Shown here: piece by piece, positions 38,023 to 50,007 of the stretch
Layout of the letters: the number at the start of each line of letters is the position of its first letter
How positions within the stretch are numbered: the stretch's first letter is position 1
Assembly: GCA_029256575.1 (NCBI GenBank)
Contig: JAQSXR010000004.1
Coordinates: 66,514-130,513, forward strand
DNA: 64,000 nucleotides
Source of the DNA: Clostridiales bacterium
GTDB taxonomy: Bacteria > Bacillota > Clostridia > Lachnospirales > JAQSXR01
Direction of reading: 5' to 3'
Notes under the pieces: model-generated
Database searches by the model: none
Seen by the model: only the letters and a program-made list of their open reading frames with translations
What the model was told of the DNA's origin: nothing
Position numbers and translations under genes: made by a program

Positions 38023-38107
38023 ATTAACATCCTCCTATAAAATTATATCTAATTTTCCCTATCTACTTTTTCTCTACCTACTTATAATGTTTTCAAGAAA
38101 ATCATGT

Positions 38108-38222
38108 TTCTTCTATCAAGCTATTTATTGTTCTTCTTTCAAGCTATTCATTGTTCTTCTTTTAAGCTATTTATTATTCTTCTTTCAAGATATTTATTGT
38201 TCTTCTTCCAATATATCTATTG
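38108..38222. repeat. Five tandem 23-bp repeats derived from the permease 3' end
   Basis: Units start at 38108, 38131, 38154, 38177 and 38200, with consensus near TTCTTCTTTCAAGCTATTTA plus TTG. The last unit and part of the fourth encode the permease C-terminus (LEEEQ and stop). The other copies lie after the stop codon, before the ATPase gene. Since 23 is not a multiple of 3 and each unit carries the stop, added units do not extend the protein. Confidence 0.9.
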
Positions 38223-39282
38223 TTCTAATTTTATTCATAGCATAGAACAAAGGTATTTGGCATATTCCCAGAACAAATGCAAGTGATGCCAAAATAGAGC
38301 CAATTGCTTCTGGAATAAATTCTCTAGCTAATAGTCCTAGTGGTCTAACTGCTAACAAATTAATTGTTGTTACTCCAATTCCTATAATAAATACAGATAC
38401 GAACAATCCTAATCCGAAAAATATTAACATTTCTCTAAGAGTCACAAAAAATATATTTTGACTAGAAAACCCTATTGAATGGTATAAGCACCATTCTTCA
38501 TGTCTATCTCTATAGTACATGTTAATTACTATAACAAGACATATACATAATACAATCAAACTTCCTATATTGATTACCATTTTAGAAGCAGCAATAGAGT
38601 CTACGATAAATTCTTTGTAAGCTTTTTTACCTTGAACACTATCATACACAATATTGTCAAACTTAAGTTCCTTTGCAAGAATGCTATAATCGACACCTTT
38701 TCCATTTGACAGTATACTGATGCAATTATTTGACAGATTTCGGATTCCTGTTCCAAAATAATAATCAGATTCAACAATTCCTACAACAGTAAAATCAATT
38801 TTAAACTTATCATTTAATTGTATATTGTTATTTTTACATAATTTTTTATCTAATATTATTTCACCTGGACTTTGAGGCATTCTTCCTTCTATTAGCTTAG
38901 CGTCAAAATAATCCATAAGGACGTCGACCTTATCTATACTTGTCAAGGCCATATCCGCACTATTCATTCCTATAATAGAGGTTACTGATATCGACATATA
39001 CTGCACCGGAAAAACATCAATAACATTTTCTTCTTTAATTCTCTTTATACTTTGCTCAAATAATTCCTCTGCATTCTCATAACTACCTAAATTATTCACA
39101 CGTATAAATTGTTGTTTTTCCATATGGTCGAAGTACATTTTTTTAAACGACGTAAACGATGGATCTAGCATATAATTTACGAGATACAACATTGTGGCAA
39201 ATAGAGCGATAGTAATTACTAAAACACTAACACGTTTTTTATTAGCCTTGATGTATGTAGTGGCTGATAATCCTCTTTTCAT
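38194..39282 (-). CDS. FtsX-type ABC permease, first subunit
   Basis: 362 residues. N-terminal TM (about 19-36), MacB-like extracellular domain (about 40-230) and three C-terminal TM helices, with EWCLYHSIGFSSQNIFFVTLREM before the second. It ends NKIRTIDILEEEQ, the usual conserved end of these permeases, so it is complete. GGAGAAAG precedes the ATG. It is first in the operon with ATPase and a second permease, behind a promoter with a possible response-regulator site. Confidence 0.88.
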   Translation of the reverse strand: MKRGLSATTYIKANKKRVSVLVITIALFATMLYLVNYMLDPSFTSFKKMYFDHMEKQQFIRVNNLGSYENAEELFEQSIKRIKEENVIDVFPVQYMSISVTSIIGMNSADMALTSIDKVDVLMDYFDAKLIEGRMPQSPGEIILDKKLCKNNNIQLNDKFKIDFTVVGIVESDYYFGTGIRNLSNNCISILSNGKGVDYSILAKELKFDNIVYDSVQGKKAYKEFIVDSIAASKMVINIGSLIVLCICLVIVINMYYRDRHEEWCLYHSIGFSSQNIFFVTLREMLIFFGLGLFVSVFIIGIGVTTINLLAVRPLGLLAREFIPEAIGSILASLAFVLGICQIPLFYAMNKIRTIDILEEEQ

Positions 39283-45089: not shown

Positions 45090-45887
45090 TTAAACACCTC
45101 TTAAATAAGACAGCATCGCCTTCTTGTCATCACTTAACATTAGAGCCTCACCTATAAGCACTGCATCAACACCCACCTCATTGAGTAATGCAATATCATC
45201 AGCAGTTTTGATTCCACTCTCCGCTACAAAAATAATGTCACCAGGCACAATACCTCTAAGCTTTGTACATGTTCGAATATCAACCTCAAAAGTCTTTAAA
45301 TTTCGATTATTCACTCCAATAACCCTAGCTCCAGCTTCTATCGCAGACCGAACTTCATCTTCTGTATGAGCCTCTACAAGAGCAGAAAGTCCTAATTCAT
45401 CGCAAATTCCAATAAATCTATTAATCGTAGCCGTATCTAACAAAGCACAAATCAACAAAATTGCATCTGCCCCAATAAGTTTTGCCTCATAAATTTGATA
45501 CTCATCAACCGTAAAATCCTTACGCAAAACCGGAACATTAACCGCCTTACTTATCTCCCTTAGATACTCATTACTACCCTTAAAATAATTAGGTTCTGTC
45601 AATACCGAGATAGCACTAGCCCCTGCTTCTTCATATTCCGTAGCAATCTTAAGATAAGGAAAATCCTTCACAATAATCCCCTTAGAAGGAGACGCCTTCT
45701 TCACTTCACATATAAATGAAATATCCTCCCCCACCAAAGCCTTCTCAAAAGCAAAATCTTCTCTATGATTAAACCTCTTAACTATCTCCCCTTCATAAAT
45801 CTCCCTCTTCATATCCTCAAGAGAAATCCTCCTCTTCCCCTCTTCCACCCTAATCCTACTAGCCTCACACAACATATCAAGAATCAT
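45090..45887 (-). CDS. trpC: Indole-3-glycerol phosphate synthase
   Basis: 265 residues. Motifs ICEVKKASPSKGII (catalytic Lys), VPVLRKDFTVDEYQ, GVNNRNLKTFEVD and FVAESGIKTADDI. It closes the indole ring. It is the first gene after the 706-bp repeat region separating it from trpD. No convincing promoter is visible directly upstream, but the region is AT-rich. GGGATGTGATGGG lies before the ATG as a weak ribosome site. Confidence 0.96.
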   Translation of the reverse strand: MILDMLCEASRIRVEEGKRRISLEDMKREIYEGEIVKRFNHREDFAFEKALVGEDISFICEVKKASPSKGIIVKDFPYLKIATEYEEAGASAISVLTEPNYFKGSNEYLREISKAVNVPVLRKDFTVDEYQIYEAKLIGADAILLICALLDTATINRFIGICDELGLSALVEAHTEDEVRSAIEAGARVIGVNNRNLKTFEVDIRTCTKLRGIVPGDIIFVAESGIKTADDIALLNEVGVDAVLIGEALMLSDDKKAMLSYLRGV

Positions 45888-45953
45888 CCCATCACATCCC
45901 TTTCCACTTCATTATCTCAATTTAACCCCTCAAGCCAATTTAATCCTCTTCAT

Positions 45954-46250
45954 TAAATCCCCTAAGTTAATTAATTTATTTTATCCTCATCTTTAAATCC
46001 CCTAAGTTAATTAATTTATTTTATCCTCATCTTAAAATCCCTAAGTTAATTAATTTATTTAAATCCTCATCTTAAAATCCCTAAGTTAATTAATTTATTT
46101 AAATCCTCATCTTAAAATCCCTATAATTTATTCAAATCCTCATCTTAAATTCCATTAGTTAATAATTTAATAAATTCTCATGTTAAAATCCCTAAGTTAT
46201 CTTTAAATCCCCTAAGTTATTTAATCCCTAAGTTATTTAATCCCTCATCT
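45954..46250. repeat. 40-bp tandem repeat array between trpD and trpC
   Basis: Four 40-bp units (45954, 45994, 46034, 46074), two exact pairs, then shortened or diverged copies to about 46250. Read on the trp-coding strand, each full unit has AGGGG or TAGGGAT, about 8 nt, then ATGAGGAT and a stop within 3-4 codons (MRIK or MRI). The units are joined with no unique spacers, so it is not CRISPR. Role unknown. Confidence 0.9.
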
Positions 46251-46282: not shown

Positions 46283-46516
46283 AGTTTTGTCTGTTCCCTT
46301 CCCATACATTTCATATTCTTCGCAAGTCTTAAGATAAGTATTTGCATATGTTTTTCATTTGAATACACAATCTCGGGAATTGTCCGTGTATAGCAGACGC
46401 TCTTAGTCTGCAATACACGAACAAACCCAAGATTGTGGAGGCAAGAGAAAAACATGCAAATCTATCTTAAGACCAGCGAAGAATCTCACTCCCCCTCCAA
46501 GGGAACCGACAAAACT
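46283..46516. repeat. 234-nt imperfect palindrome (giant hairpin or MITE-like element) between trpD and trpC
   Basis: Arms 46283-46398 and 46406-46516 around a 7-nt loop. Matching blocks from the outside: AGTTTTGTC, GTTCCCTT, ATTCTTCGC, GTCTTAAGATA, ATTTGCAT, GTTTTTC, CACAATCT, GGG, CGTGTAT, GCAGAC and shorter ones, about 83 pairs in total. Internal loops are mostly symmetric (14x14, 9x9, 2x2). No transposase and no clear target-site duplication. ORFs within it are artefacts of the repeat. Confidence 0.9.
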
Positions 46517-46521
46517 CACCC

Positions 46522-46593
46522 CCTTATCTTGCCCTTGCTCTTGATCTTGCTCTTGATCTTGGTTTTGATCTTGCTCTTTCCCTTGATTTTGAT
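46522..46593. repeat. Purine-rich 12-mer microsatellite right after trpD
   Basis: Read on the trp strand, AAGATCAAGAGC-type units repeat several times directly after the trpD TAG stop. If TAG were read through, the frame would encode alternating Ile-Lys/Ser-Lys (IKSK) for about 24 residues before TGA. Confidence 0.85.
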
Positions 46594-47601
46594 CTATTCA
46601 TTCGACATTTCAATAAACTTATTTAACTGCTGCATTGCTTTTTTGCTATCTATCATTTCTGCTGCCATCTTTACACATTCTCTCAAGGTAATATTGTTAT
46701 ATGACATATATAAGCACACAGCCGAATTCAGTAATACAATATCACGTTTTGGCCCTTTTTCACCACTTAGAATTCGTCTGGCTATCTCTGCATTTACAGT
46801 TGGATCTCCACCTACTAGATCTTCCGGCTTACAATATTCGAATCCAAACTGACGTGGATCAAGGAAAAAGCTATTTAACTGTCCATTATTTACTTCACAA
46901 ACTGTGGATGAGGAAGTTAATGAAACTTCATCTAGTCCGTCATGTCCGTGCACAACCATTGCTCTCTTAACTCCAAGGTTGGCTAATACTCTTGCAAGTG
47001 GTTCCACTAGATTCTCATCATAAACCCCTAACAATTGAAGGTTTGCGCCTGCTGGACTTGCTAATGGACCAAGAATATTAAATATTGTACGGACACCAAG
47101 TTCTTTTCTTACCGGAGCAGCATACTTCATTGAAGAATGATAAAGAGGTGCAAACATAAAACACATTCCAATTTCTTTGAGTATTTTTTCACTCTTCTCG
47201 ACAGGTATATCTATCTTAACTCCTAGTGCTTCTAACACATCAGCGCTTCCACATTTACTAGATACACTTCTATTACCGTGTTTTGCAACCGGAATTCCTG
47301 CTGCTGATATTACGAAAGATGAAACAGTCGATATATTAAATGTAAATGCTTCGTCTCCTCCAGTTCCAACAATCTCTAATACATCTCCATCATGTCTTAA
47401 TTTTGTACCATGCTCCCTCATAATCATTGCACACGCTGTTATTTCATCAATACTTTCACCTTTCATTCTCATAGCAGTAATAAAAGAAGAAATCTGAGCA
47501 TTTGTTGCTTCGCCCTTCATAATTTCGTCCATAACGGACTTCGTCATTTCAAGAGATAAATCTTCTTTATTCAATAAATTATATATTGCTTGTTGAATCA
47601 T
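46594..47601 (-). CDS. trpD: Anthranilate phosphoribosyltransferase
   Basis: 335 residues, normal length. PRPP loop VGTGGDEAFTFNIST, KHGNRSVSSKCGSADVLE, the NILGPLASPAG motif and VHGHDGLDE. It joins PRPP to anthranilate. Its start overlaps the trpG end by 4 bp, so it is translationally coupled. Downstream of its stop lies the repeat region before trpC. Confidence 0.96.
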   Translation of the reverse strand: MIQQAIYNLLNKEDLSLEMTKSVMDEIMKGEATNAQISSFITAMRMKGESIDEITACAMIMREHGTKLRHDGDVLEIVGTGGDEAFTFNISTVSSFVISAAGIPVAKHGNRSVSSKCGSADVLEALGVKIDIPVEKSEKILKEIGMCFMFAPLYHSSMKYAAPVRKELGVRTIFNILGPLASPAGANLQLLGVYDENLVEPLARVLANLGVKRAMVVHGHDGLDEVSLTSSSTVCEVNNGQLNSFFLDPRQFGFEYCKPEDLVGGDPTVNAEIARRILSGEKGPKRDIVLLNSAVCLYMSYNNITLRECVKMAAEMIDSKKAMQQLNKFIEMSNE

Positions 47602-49723: not shown

Positions 49724-50007
49724 AAAAAAAGCTCCTGCCCCTGTATTTCTACAGGGACAAAAGCTTAAGCTTCTGCGGTACCACCCAATTTGGCGTATTA
49801 TAAAATACGTCCTCTCATTTTGCATACCATCATATGCACCCAACTGATAACGGACAGGGTTCCCGTCAGCACCTACTCCTAACTCAAGTTTCAGGCTGCC
49901 CTCACAAGTCCATTCAGGAAAATCTATGCTACCGCATTCTCACCAATCAGCGGTTCTCTGGATACACCAAATTTTTCTTACTTCTCTTGTTCAGCGGTTT
50001 ATTATTT
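49724..50007 (-). promoter_or_regulatory. Tryptophan T-box leader of the trp operon
   Basis: The 417-bp gap before trpE contains this RNA element. On the - strand the T-box GGGTGGTACCGC (about 49775-49786) is followed by a terminator (49724-49766) with a CCCTGTA/TACAGGG core and a T-run. Upstream are a stem I-like region (AACCGCTGATTGGTGAGA...) and the segment GAATGGAC with candidate specifier UGG (Trp; 49910-49912). Uncharged tRNA-Trp binding should favour the antiterminator and allow trp expression. Confidence 0.92.

Follow-up and report, generated by a model that had tools for sequence, protein, structure and literature searches.

The window, by which we mean the whole 64-kb stretch of DNA that was analysed, carries a trp operon on its minus strand. 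Two neighbouring genes of this operon, trpD (46594..47601; TIGR01245, E 2e-124) and the next gene trpC (45090..45887; NF001377, E 2.6e-102), lie 706 nt apart in the source genome. The space between them holds a palindromic element of 234 nt at 46283..46516, separated from the 3' end of trpD by a gap of 77 nt. Its RNA strand is the strand of the trp mRNA (minus), as judged from the fold, the strand scores of a covariance model and the G-U versus A-C counts given below. Tandem repeats occupy both sides of the hairpin. Tandem repeat analysis revealed a short purine-rich array of 12/24-bp units from the trpD stop codon to the hairpin (46526..46595, minus strand). On the 3' side of the RNA strand, a second array (45938..46245, minus strand) is built of a 40-bp unit repeated 6.8 times, followed by a 16-bp unit repeated 3.4 times, and is purine-rich and C-poor. 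Upstream of trpE, a T-box leader was detected (RF00230, 118 bits; 49750-50003, minus strand), and this T-box is the likely control of the trp operon. We compared the trpD–trpC junction, for which contiguity in relatives had been proposed as a check by an earlier sequence-only reading of this DNA, with that of genomes from families other than the source genome's. In five of the six relatives where both genes were seen, they overlapped or were at most 39 nt apart. This adjacency in distant relatives is only suggestive of an insertion in the source genome.

The sequence-only reading had described a near-palindrome with two arms around a 7-nt loop and with internal loops mostly of equal size on both sides, and the geometry was borne out. 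The arms are about 113 nt each, their alignment contains 86 Watson-Crick and 6 G-U pairs, and the internal loops of the window copy are mostly symmetric (14x14, 4x4, 1x1). Of all inverted repeats in the 64-kb window, the one ranked first falls within these 234 nt. Folding gave a minimum free energy of -108.3 kcal/mol on the plus strand and, for the trp strand that the same reading had singled out for folding, -117.2 kcal/mol. Shuffled sequences reached -41.5 +/- 4.0 and -54.9 +/- 4.3 kcal/mol, respectively, corresponding to z = -16.7 (plus) and -14.6 (minus), with 0 of 200 shuffles equally good. A chance origin of the palindrome was rejected on these z values of -15 to -17 and on the presence of about 18 copies.

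The hairpin can be divided into several parts, all given here for the minus strand. The 3' arm of the outer helix (46283..46300, consensus AGGGGCACTGACAAAAC) pairs with 46499-46516, and these 18 nt are 94% complementary; in other copies the outer helix is present but variable. It is followed by one 14-nt side of the large symmetric internal loop (46301..46314, other side 46485-46498) in the predicted structure, and a large internal loop of similar size was found in several other copies. The 3' arm of the middle helix (46315..46336, partner 46463-46484; 22 nt, 91% complementary) varies in sequence among copies with its pairing kept. Next comes the 3' arm of a nearly invariant core (46348..46370, RNA consensus ATTGTGTATTCAAAGGAAAAACAT), which pairs with 46433-46455 (RNA consensus ATGTTTTTCTCTTGCCTCCACAAT) and contains an asymmetric 4x4 loop, CCUC/UAUU. 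Copy comparison assigned 46371..46432 to a variable stem block and a conserved apex, which in most copies reads TTTGTnCGTGA-CTAT-CAGAT / ATCTG-CTAT-TCACG.ACAAA; in the window copy the apex is a variant that is partly paired. The inner helix of the window copy (30 nt) is 80% complementary.

A lack of other copies had been named by the sequence-only reading as an argument against a functional or mobile element. Using blastn and a covariance model, we found about 18 dispersed copies on many contigs of the source genome. Blastn alone detected about 15 further places at 73-92% identity. The covariance model R1, built from 14 copies, recovered 13 full-length copies at 166-190 bits and one more, L017, at 118 bits. 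Four copies (L012, L016, L059 and L060) are truncated or decayed according to R1, and L015 is cut by a contig end. Across the family the element measures about 200-240 bp. The copies are at most about 87% alike and therefore do not reflect a recent burst. The ends of the element are GTTTTGTC-like in the window copy, L004, L010 and L014, and differ in L003, L005 and L013. In L013 (1898-2089) the outer stem has been replaced by a sequence wholly unlike that of the other copies, yet it is 97% complementary.

Every full-length copy scored at least 30 bits better on the strand equivalent to the trp mRNA, and thus the palindromic element has a direction. This direction is related to that of the neighbouring genes. 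Sixteen of the 18 copies in the source genome follow the 3' end of a co-oriented gene, usually within about 110 nt (p = 0.0013 against an expectation of 50%; random insertion into gaps of the window gives a share of 0.45). The upstream genes are trpD, prfA, ispG, a flippase-like gene, tuf, an oppF-like gene, nspC, recO, spoIIP, acpP (read by eye), ribF, glmM, queA, tsf, a spoIID-like gene and an LL-diaminopimelate aminotransferase gene; another upstream ORF, 108 aa long, matched no family. The exceptions are L014, which lies between divergent genes, and L006, which lies at a contig end. The elements sit right behind gene 3' ends, that is after a stop codon, after an apparent terminator if there is one, or after an RNA gene, and one particular strand of the element is the sense strand. 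By eye, at least four copies (L002, L005, L007 and L010) stand right behind apparent intrinsic terminators, so little transcript would reach them.

The position of the window copy inside an operon, between trpD and trpC, might suggest an attenuator or terminator that serves trp control alone. An intrinsic terminator consists of a short GC-rich stem with a T-run; the window palindrome has no T-run behind its stem and the operon continues with trpC. The same element also stands behind prfA, tuf, tsf, rnpB and other genes, and the T-box before trpE is the more plausible control of the operon. Because the family sits behind many unrelated genes, the element is not a trp-specific device, and we rejected this explanation, to which we attach next to no probability. 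From its place inside the trp operon, the window element is expected to be transcribed.

Relatives were searched by several routes. A scan of 392 genomes of the order identified one other certain carrier, Mobilisporobacter senegalensis DSM 26537, which belongs to the same order (Lachnospirales) and to another family. It contains three clear homologues, which were found at E about 1e-21 with R1, a model that excludes them. All three lie just downstream of a gene 3' end in the same orientation: L055 and L056 come after the stop codon of a gene, and the RNase P RNA (rnpB) ends 30 nt before the L057 element. Their ends read GCCTTGCC. A first two-arm sequence pattern found nothing in the named genomes, and a widened exact two-arm pattern found only Mobilisporobacter there. 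A class-wide scan with model R2 under strict filters, which are able to miss weak matches, gave no further carrier. Behind guaB in genome G606, a very stable hairpin (L058, 1499-1659) scored 72.7 versus 62.5 bits on its two strands and lacks the CUAU/CUAU apex. On account of these close strand scores and the missing apex, L058 was counted only as a possible distant relative of the family.

Database comparisons did not assign the element to a known family. Rfam gave no match at the gathering score, and a relaxed scan returned only far-below-threshold matches, mostly to miRNA-type hairpins; a known Rfam RNA family was therefore rejected. Blastn against phages and plasmids gave no match. In viral contigs the exact two-arm pattern was absent, and the 27 matches to a one-arm pattern all failed the covariance model, so that a phage or plasmid origin was rejected as well. 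As far as these searches reach, and with the named palindrome families compared by description, the family appears to be undescribed.

Compensatory base changes, the absence of which the sequence-only reading would have held against a real element, were evaluated in an alignment of 18 sequences and 69 pairs that includes the possible member L058 as one row. In this alignment 91.9% of the cells are paired, a share somewhat favoured by the fact that the structure was derived from the own-genome copies of the same alignment. Changes on both sides were found in 46 of the 69 stem pairs, compared with 26.1 +/- 2.5 after shuffling and 16-30 in slid controls. The cells with two-sided changes numbered 183 (48.3 +/- 5.5 when shuffled), and the covariation score was 0.424 against 0.130 for shuffled and 0.065-0.079 for slid alignments. 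The shuffle counts ignore the relatedness of the copies; the slid controls keep it. The changes are distributed unevenly over the hairpin. Two-sided changes occur in one copy or more at 23 of the 28 pairs of helix 1, at the middle helix, and at 21 of the 30 pairs of helix 3, at the variable stem block. In helix 2, the core, 8 of 11 pairs are the same in all sequences, those of Mobilisporobacter among them. Across both carriers there is hardly any variation in the core helix ATGTTTTTC / GAAAAACAT, in its adjoining 4x4 loop and in the CUAU/CUAU loop at the apex. Read from this alignment, pairing is preserved while the stem sequence drifts. The alternative of an ancient inverted duplication, perfect at first and diverged since, was raised by the sequence-only reading and is contradicted by these data: the stems change on both sides together and do not merely decay, and nothing in the element is better conserved than its asymmetric internal loops. 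Both computable counts of the test which that reading had set for itself, other copies and compensatory changes, speak for a real element.

Complementarity could also be kept by copying from arm to arm, through template switching or conversion and without selection on the RNA; only the core would then be under constraint, perhaps because a transposase or nuclease acts on it in hairpin DNA. In copy-to-copy comparisons, two-sided differences outnumbered one-sided differences (1294 versus 581), and over half of the two-sided ones were of the transversion type. This dominance and the frequent transversions suggest that some arm-to-arm copying is possible. Stem blocks that look replaced wholesale fit the same process, as do L005 and L008, where each side carries tandem repeats of the arms. 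However, such copying would erase asymmetric internal loops, the very part that is best conserved, and in the three Mobilisporobacter copies most changes are one-sided. The strand-specific mismatches also count against it. Among the own-genome copies, with pairs found from both strands, the RNA strand has 19 G-U versus 6 A-C cells, a modest excess (p 0.015, with cells that are not independent) that favours constraint at the RNA level. The Mobilisporobacter copies have no such excess (4 G-U, 5 A-C). As the full cause of the pairing, arm-to-arm copying is in our judgement improbable.

At most full-length copies of the source genome, a tandem array starts close to where the hairpin ends on the RNA-3' side, with a unit of 6-64 bp that differs from locus to locus. 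The tails are mostly C-poor and have a mean purine content of 0.70, whereas 17 control regions gave 0.55 (p 8e-5, Mann-Whitney). Behind the window hairpin, the first 200 nt have values of 0.64 for purines and 0.03 for C. As a control, 18 gaps in the window were inspected, and six of them also have some tandem repeat. Thus repeats as such are not special; the place, strength and strand bias of the arrays beside the hairpin are. No tandem array was found at the Mobilisporobacter copies. A separate purine-rich array on the minus strand (38091-38226, 23/46-bp unit) was seen elsewhere in the window, and its fold shows no hairpin of the palindrome family. The arrays at L007 and L008 include a hairpin arm. 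In L005, L007, L008 and L018, hairpin arms were observed to be tandemly duplicated outward with periods of about 54-85 nt; stems can therefore grow as concentric modules.

The near-fixed sense orientation, together with purine-rich, C-poor simple repeats on the RNA-3' side of most own copies, could be explained by retroposition. In this scenario a purine-tailed structured transcript would have been copied behind genes in the manner of a SINE, and its A/G-rich tail would have become a minisatellite. The genome does encode a single reverse transcriptase, of group II intron type by eye (L065 1060-2472, C34 near 31806; 470 aa), but no link between it and the element was seen. Moreover, no target duplication was found, the Mobilisporobacter copies have no tail, and some arrays contain the hairpin arm itself and therefore arose by local duplication. 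We regard retroposition as very improbable.

Direct evidence of transposition was sought at the ends of the copies. Direct repeats across the element, as expected of a target-site duplication, occurred at about chance level in a test whose power is limited by low-complexity flanks. No transposase partner was noticed in the inspected flanks, and a genome-wide search for the Y1_Tnp and RVT_1 families linked neither to the element. The one Y1 transposase of the genome, of RAYT type (L066 1006-2293, C42 near 480808), is flanked by tandem and inverted TGATACAATnGGGACGGTTC repeats and is with them a separate REP-like system in the same genome. A REP/RAYT identity of the palindrome was rejected: it is not a palindrome of 20-40 bp flanking a RAYT, and the RAYT-like gene has its own, unrelated TGATACAATnGGGACGGTTC REPs. 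Multiple dispersed copies, about 18 on many contigs, are a feature of a MITE, and because the copies are dispersed we infer that the family is or was mobile. The interpretation given by the sequence-only reading is partly supported: of its suggestion of 'a structured RNA or MITE', both terms, the second in the sense of MITE-like, fit the dispersed copies and the strong covariation of the stems.

The same observations can be read without selfish DNA. The hairpin could be a functional cis-acting RNA in which core and loops serve as the binding site of a dedicated protein or a small molecule; together, the copies would then form a post-transcriptional regulon on housekeeping operons. Such a regulon is consistent with a core and 4x4 loops that are almost unchanged between two lineages, with covarying stems, with the strict position behind genes and with copies that each diverged separately without a recent burst. 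Against it, only two sampled genera carry the element with certainty, and it stands behind different genes in each; the upstream genes share no common pathway, four copies have decayed and several lie behind apparent terminators. We consider this regulon unlikely, though it deserves more credit than the copying or retroposition schemes.

The explanation that we favour, with slightly more than even confidence, is a dispersed family of miniature palindromes in two lineages of Lachnospirales that is mobile and acts as an RNA hairpin at gene junctions. Upon read-through of the operon, the RNA would fold into a hairpin of great length in which the core and the internal loops hardly vary. The family would have spread as a mobile element that is non-autonomous and favours the 3' ends of genes, and the RNA hairpin may be kept by selection, either as a cut site for a double-strand RNase (RNase III-type) or as a barrier to 3'-5' exonucleases. 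At the trp junction it might give trpEGD and trpCFBA separate mRNA lifetimes with transcription continuing. In the source genome, the hairpin may in addition provoke tandem duplication on its RNA-3' side, leaving a private purine-rich array at most copies. The more specific combination, a mobile sense-inserting family that is selected at the RNA level as a processing module of operon junctions and that drives polar 3' tandem-repeat growth at each locus, is a possibility that we put forward tentatively.

Long imperfect intergenic palindromes in many copies with a strong RNA fold are what characterises the ERIC/YPAL/NEMIS kind, and the present family has all of these features. YPAL (RU-2) of Yersinia is about 168 bp long, with observed empty sites and target duplications of 3-26 bp (PMC2229807). 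Likened by description, it is also a miniature intergenic palindrome with termini lacking TA and a long hairpin RNA that is expressed with upstream genes; its targets span or adjoin dyad symmetry, of which the four own copies behind terminators are reminiscent (PMC2229807). In contrast to YPAL, the present element is longer, covaries and has an associated 3' tandem array. ERIC (IRU, RU-1) elements of enterobacteria measure 127 bp, have TA ends and target duplications, and in Yersinia affect transcript stability in an orientation-dependent way (PMC2229807). By description they resemble our family as palindromic repeats in transcribed intergenic regions for which orientation matters, and differ from it in their TA ends, target duplications and enterobacterial hosts (PMC2229807). 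The Correia or NEMIS elements of Neisseria (about 107-155 bp, with TIR and target duplication) are described as transcribed palindromic repeats too, with a hairpin proposed as an RNase III substrate; NEMIS duplicate their target (PMC2229807), whereas no duplication was found here. REP/REPIN elements, which are associated with RAYT transposases, are likewise dispersed extragenic palindromes, but REPs are far shorter at 20-40 bp (PMC3116915, PMC3733652). In Porphyromonas gingivalis, a miniature inverted-repeat element is associated with a minisatellite (PMC4596501); there the minisatellite lies inside the MITE, whereas here the array lies beside the element and is different at every locus.

Judged from its sequences, this is a real family of the transcribed-palindrome kind, and its unusual traits are the covariation and the polar tandem arrays. 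In the best reading it belongs to the ERIC/YPAL/NEMIS kind, with a long hairpin kept at the RNA level in read-through operon transcripts, where it is probably cut or serves as an exonuclease barrier. The covarying stems and the placement point to a working RNA element that may have been dispersed in the manner of a small mobile sequence.

Palindromes scattered through bacterial genomes are usually taken for selfish DNA in decay. The present family has strongly covarying stems, a core that hardly varies, a sense orientation kept almost strictly behind housekeeping genes, and private arrays at most copies. Two questions thereby become testable: whether a miniature mobile element has turned into a lasting module of mRNA processing, and whether hairpins can give rise to minisatellites in a polar fashion.
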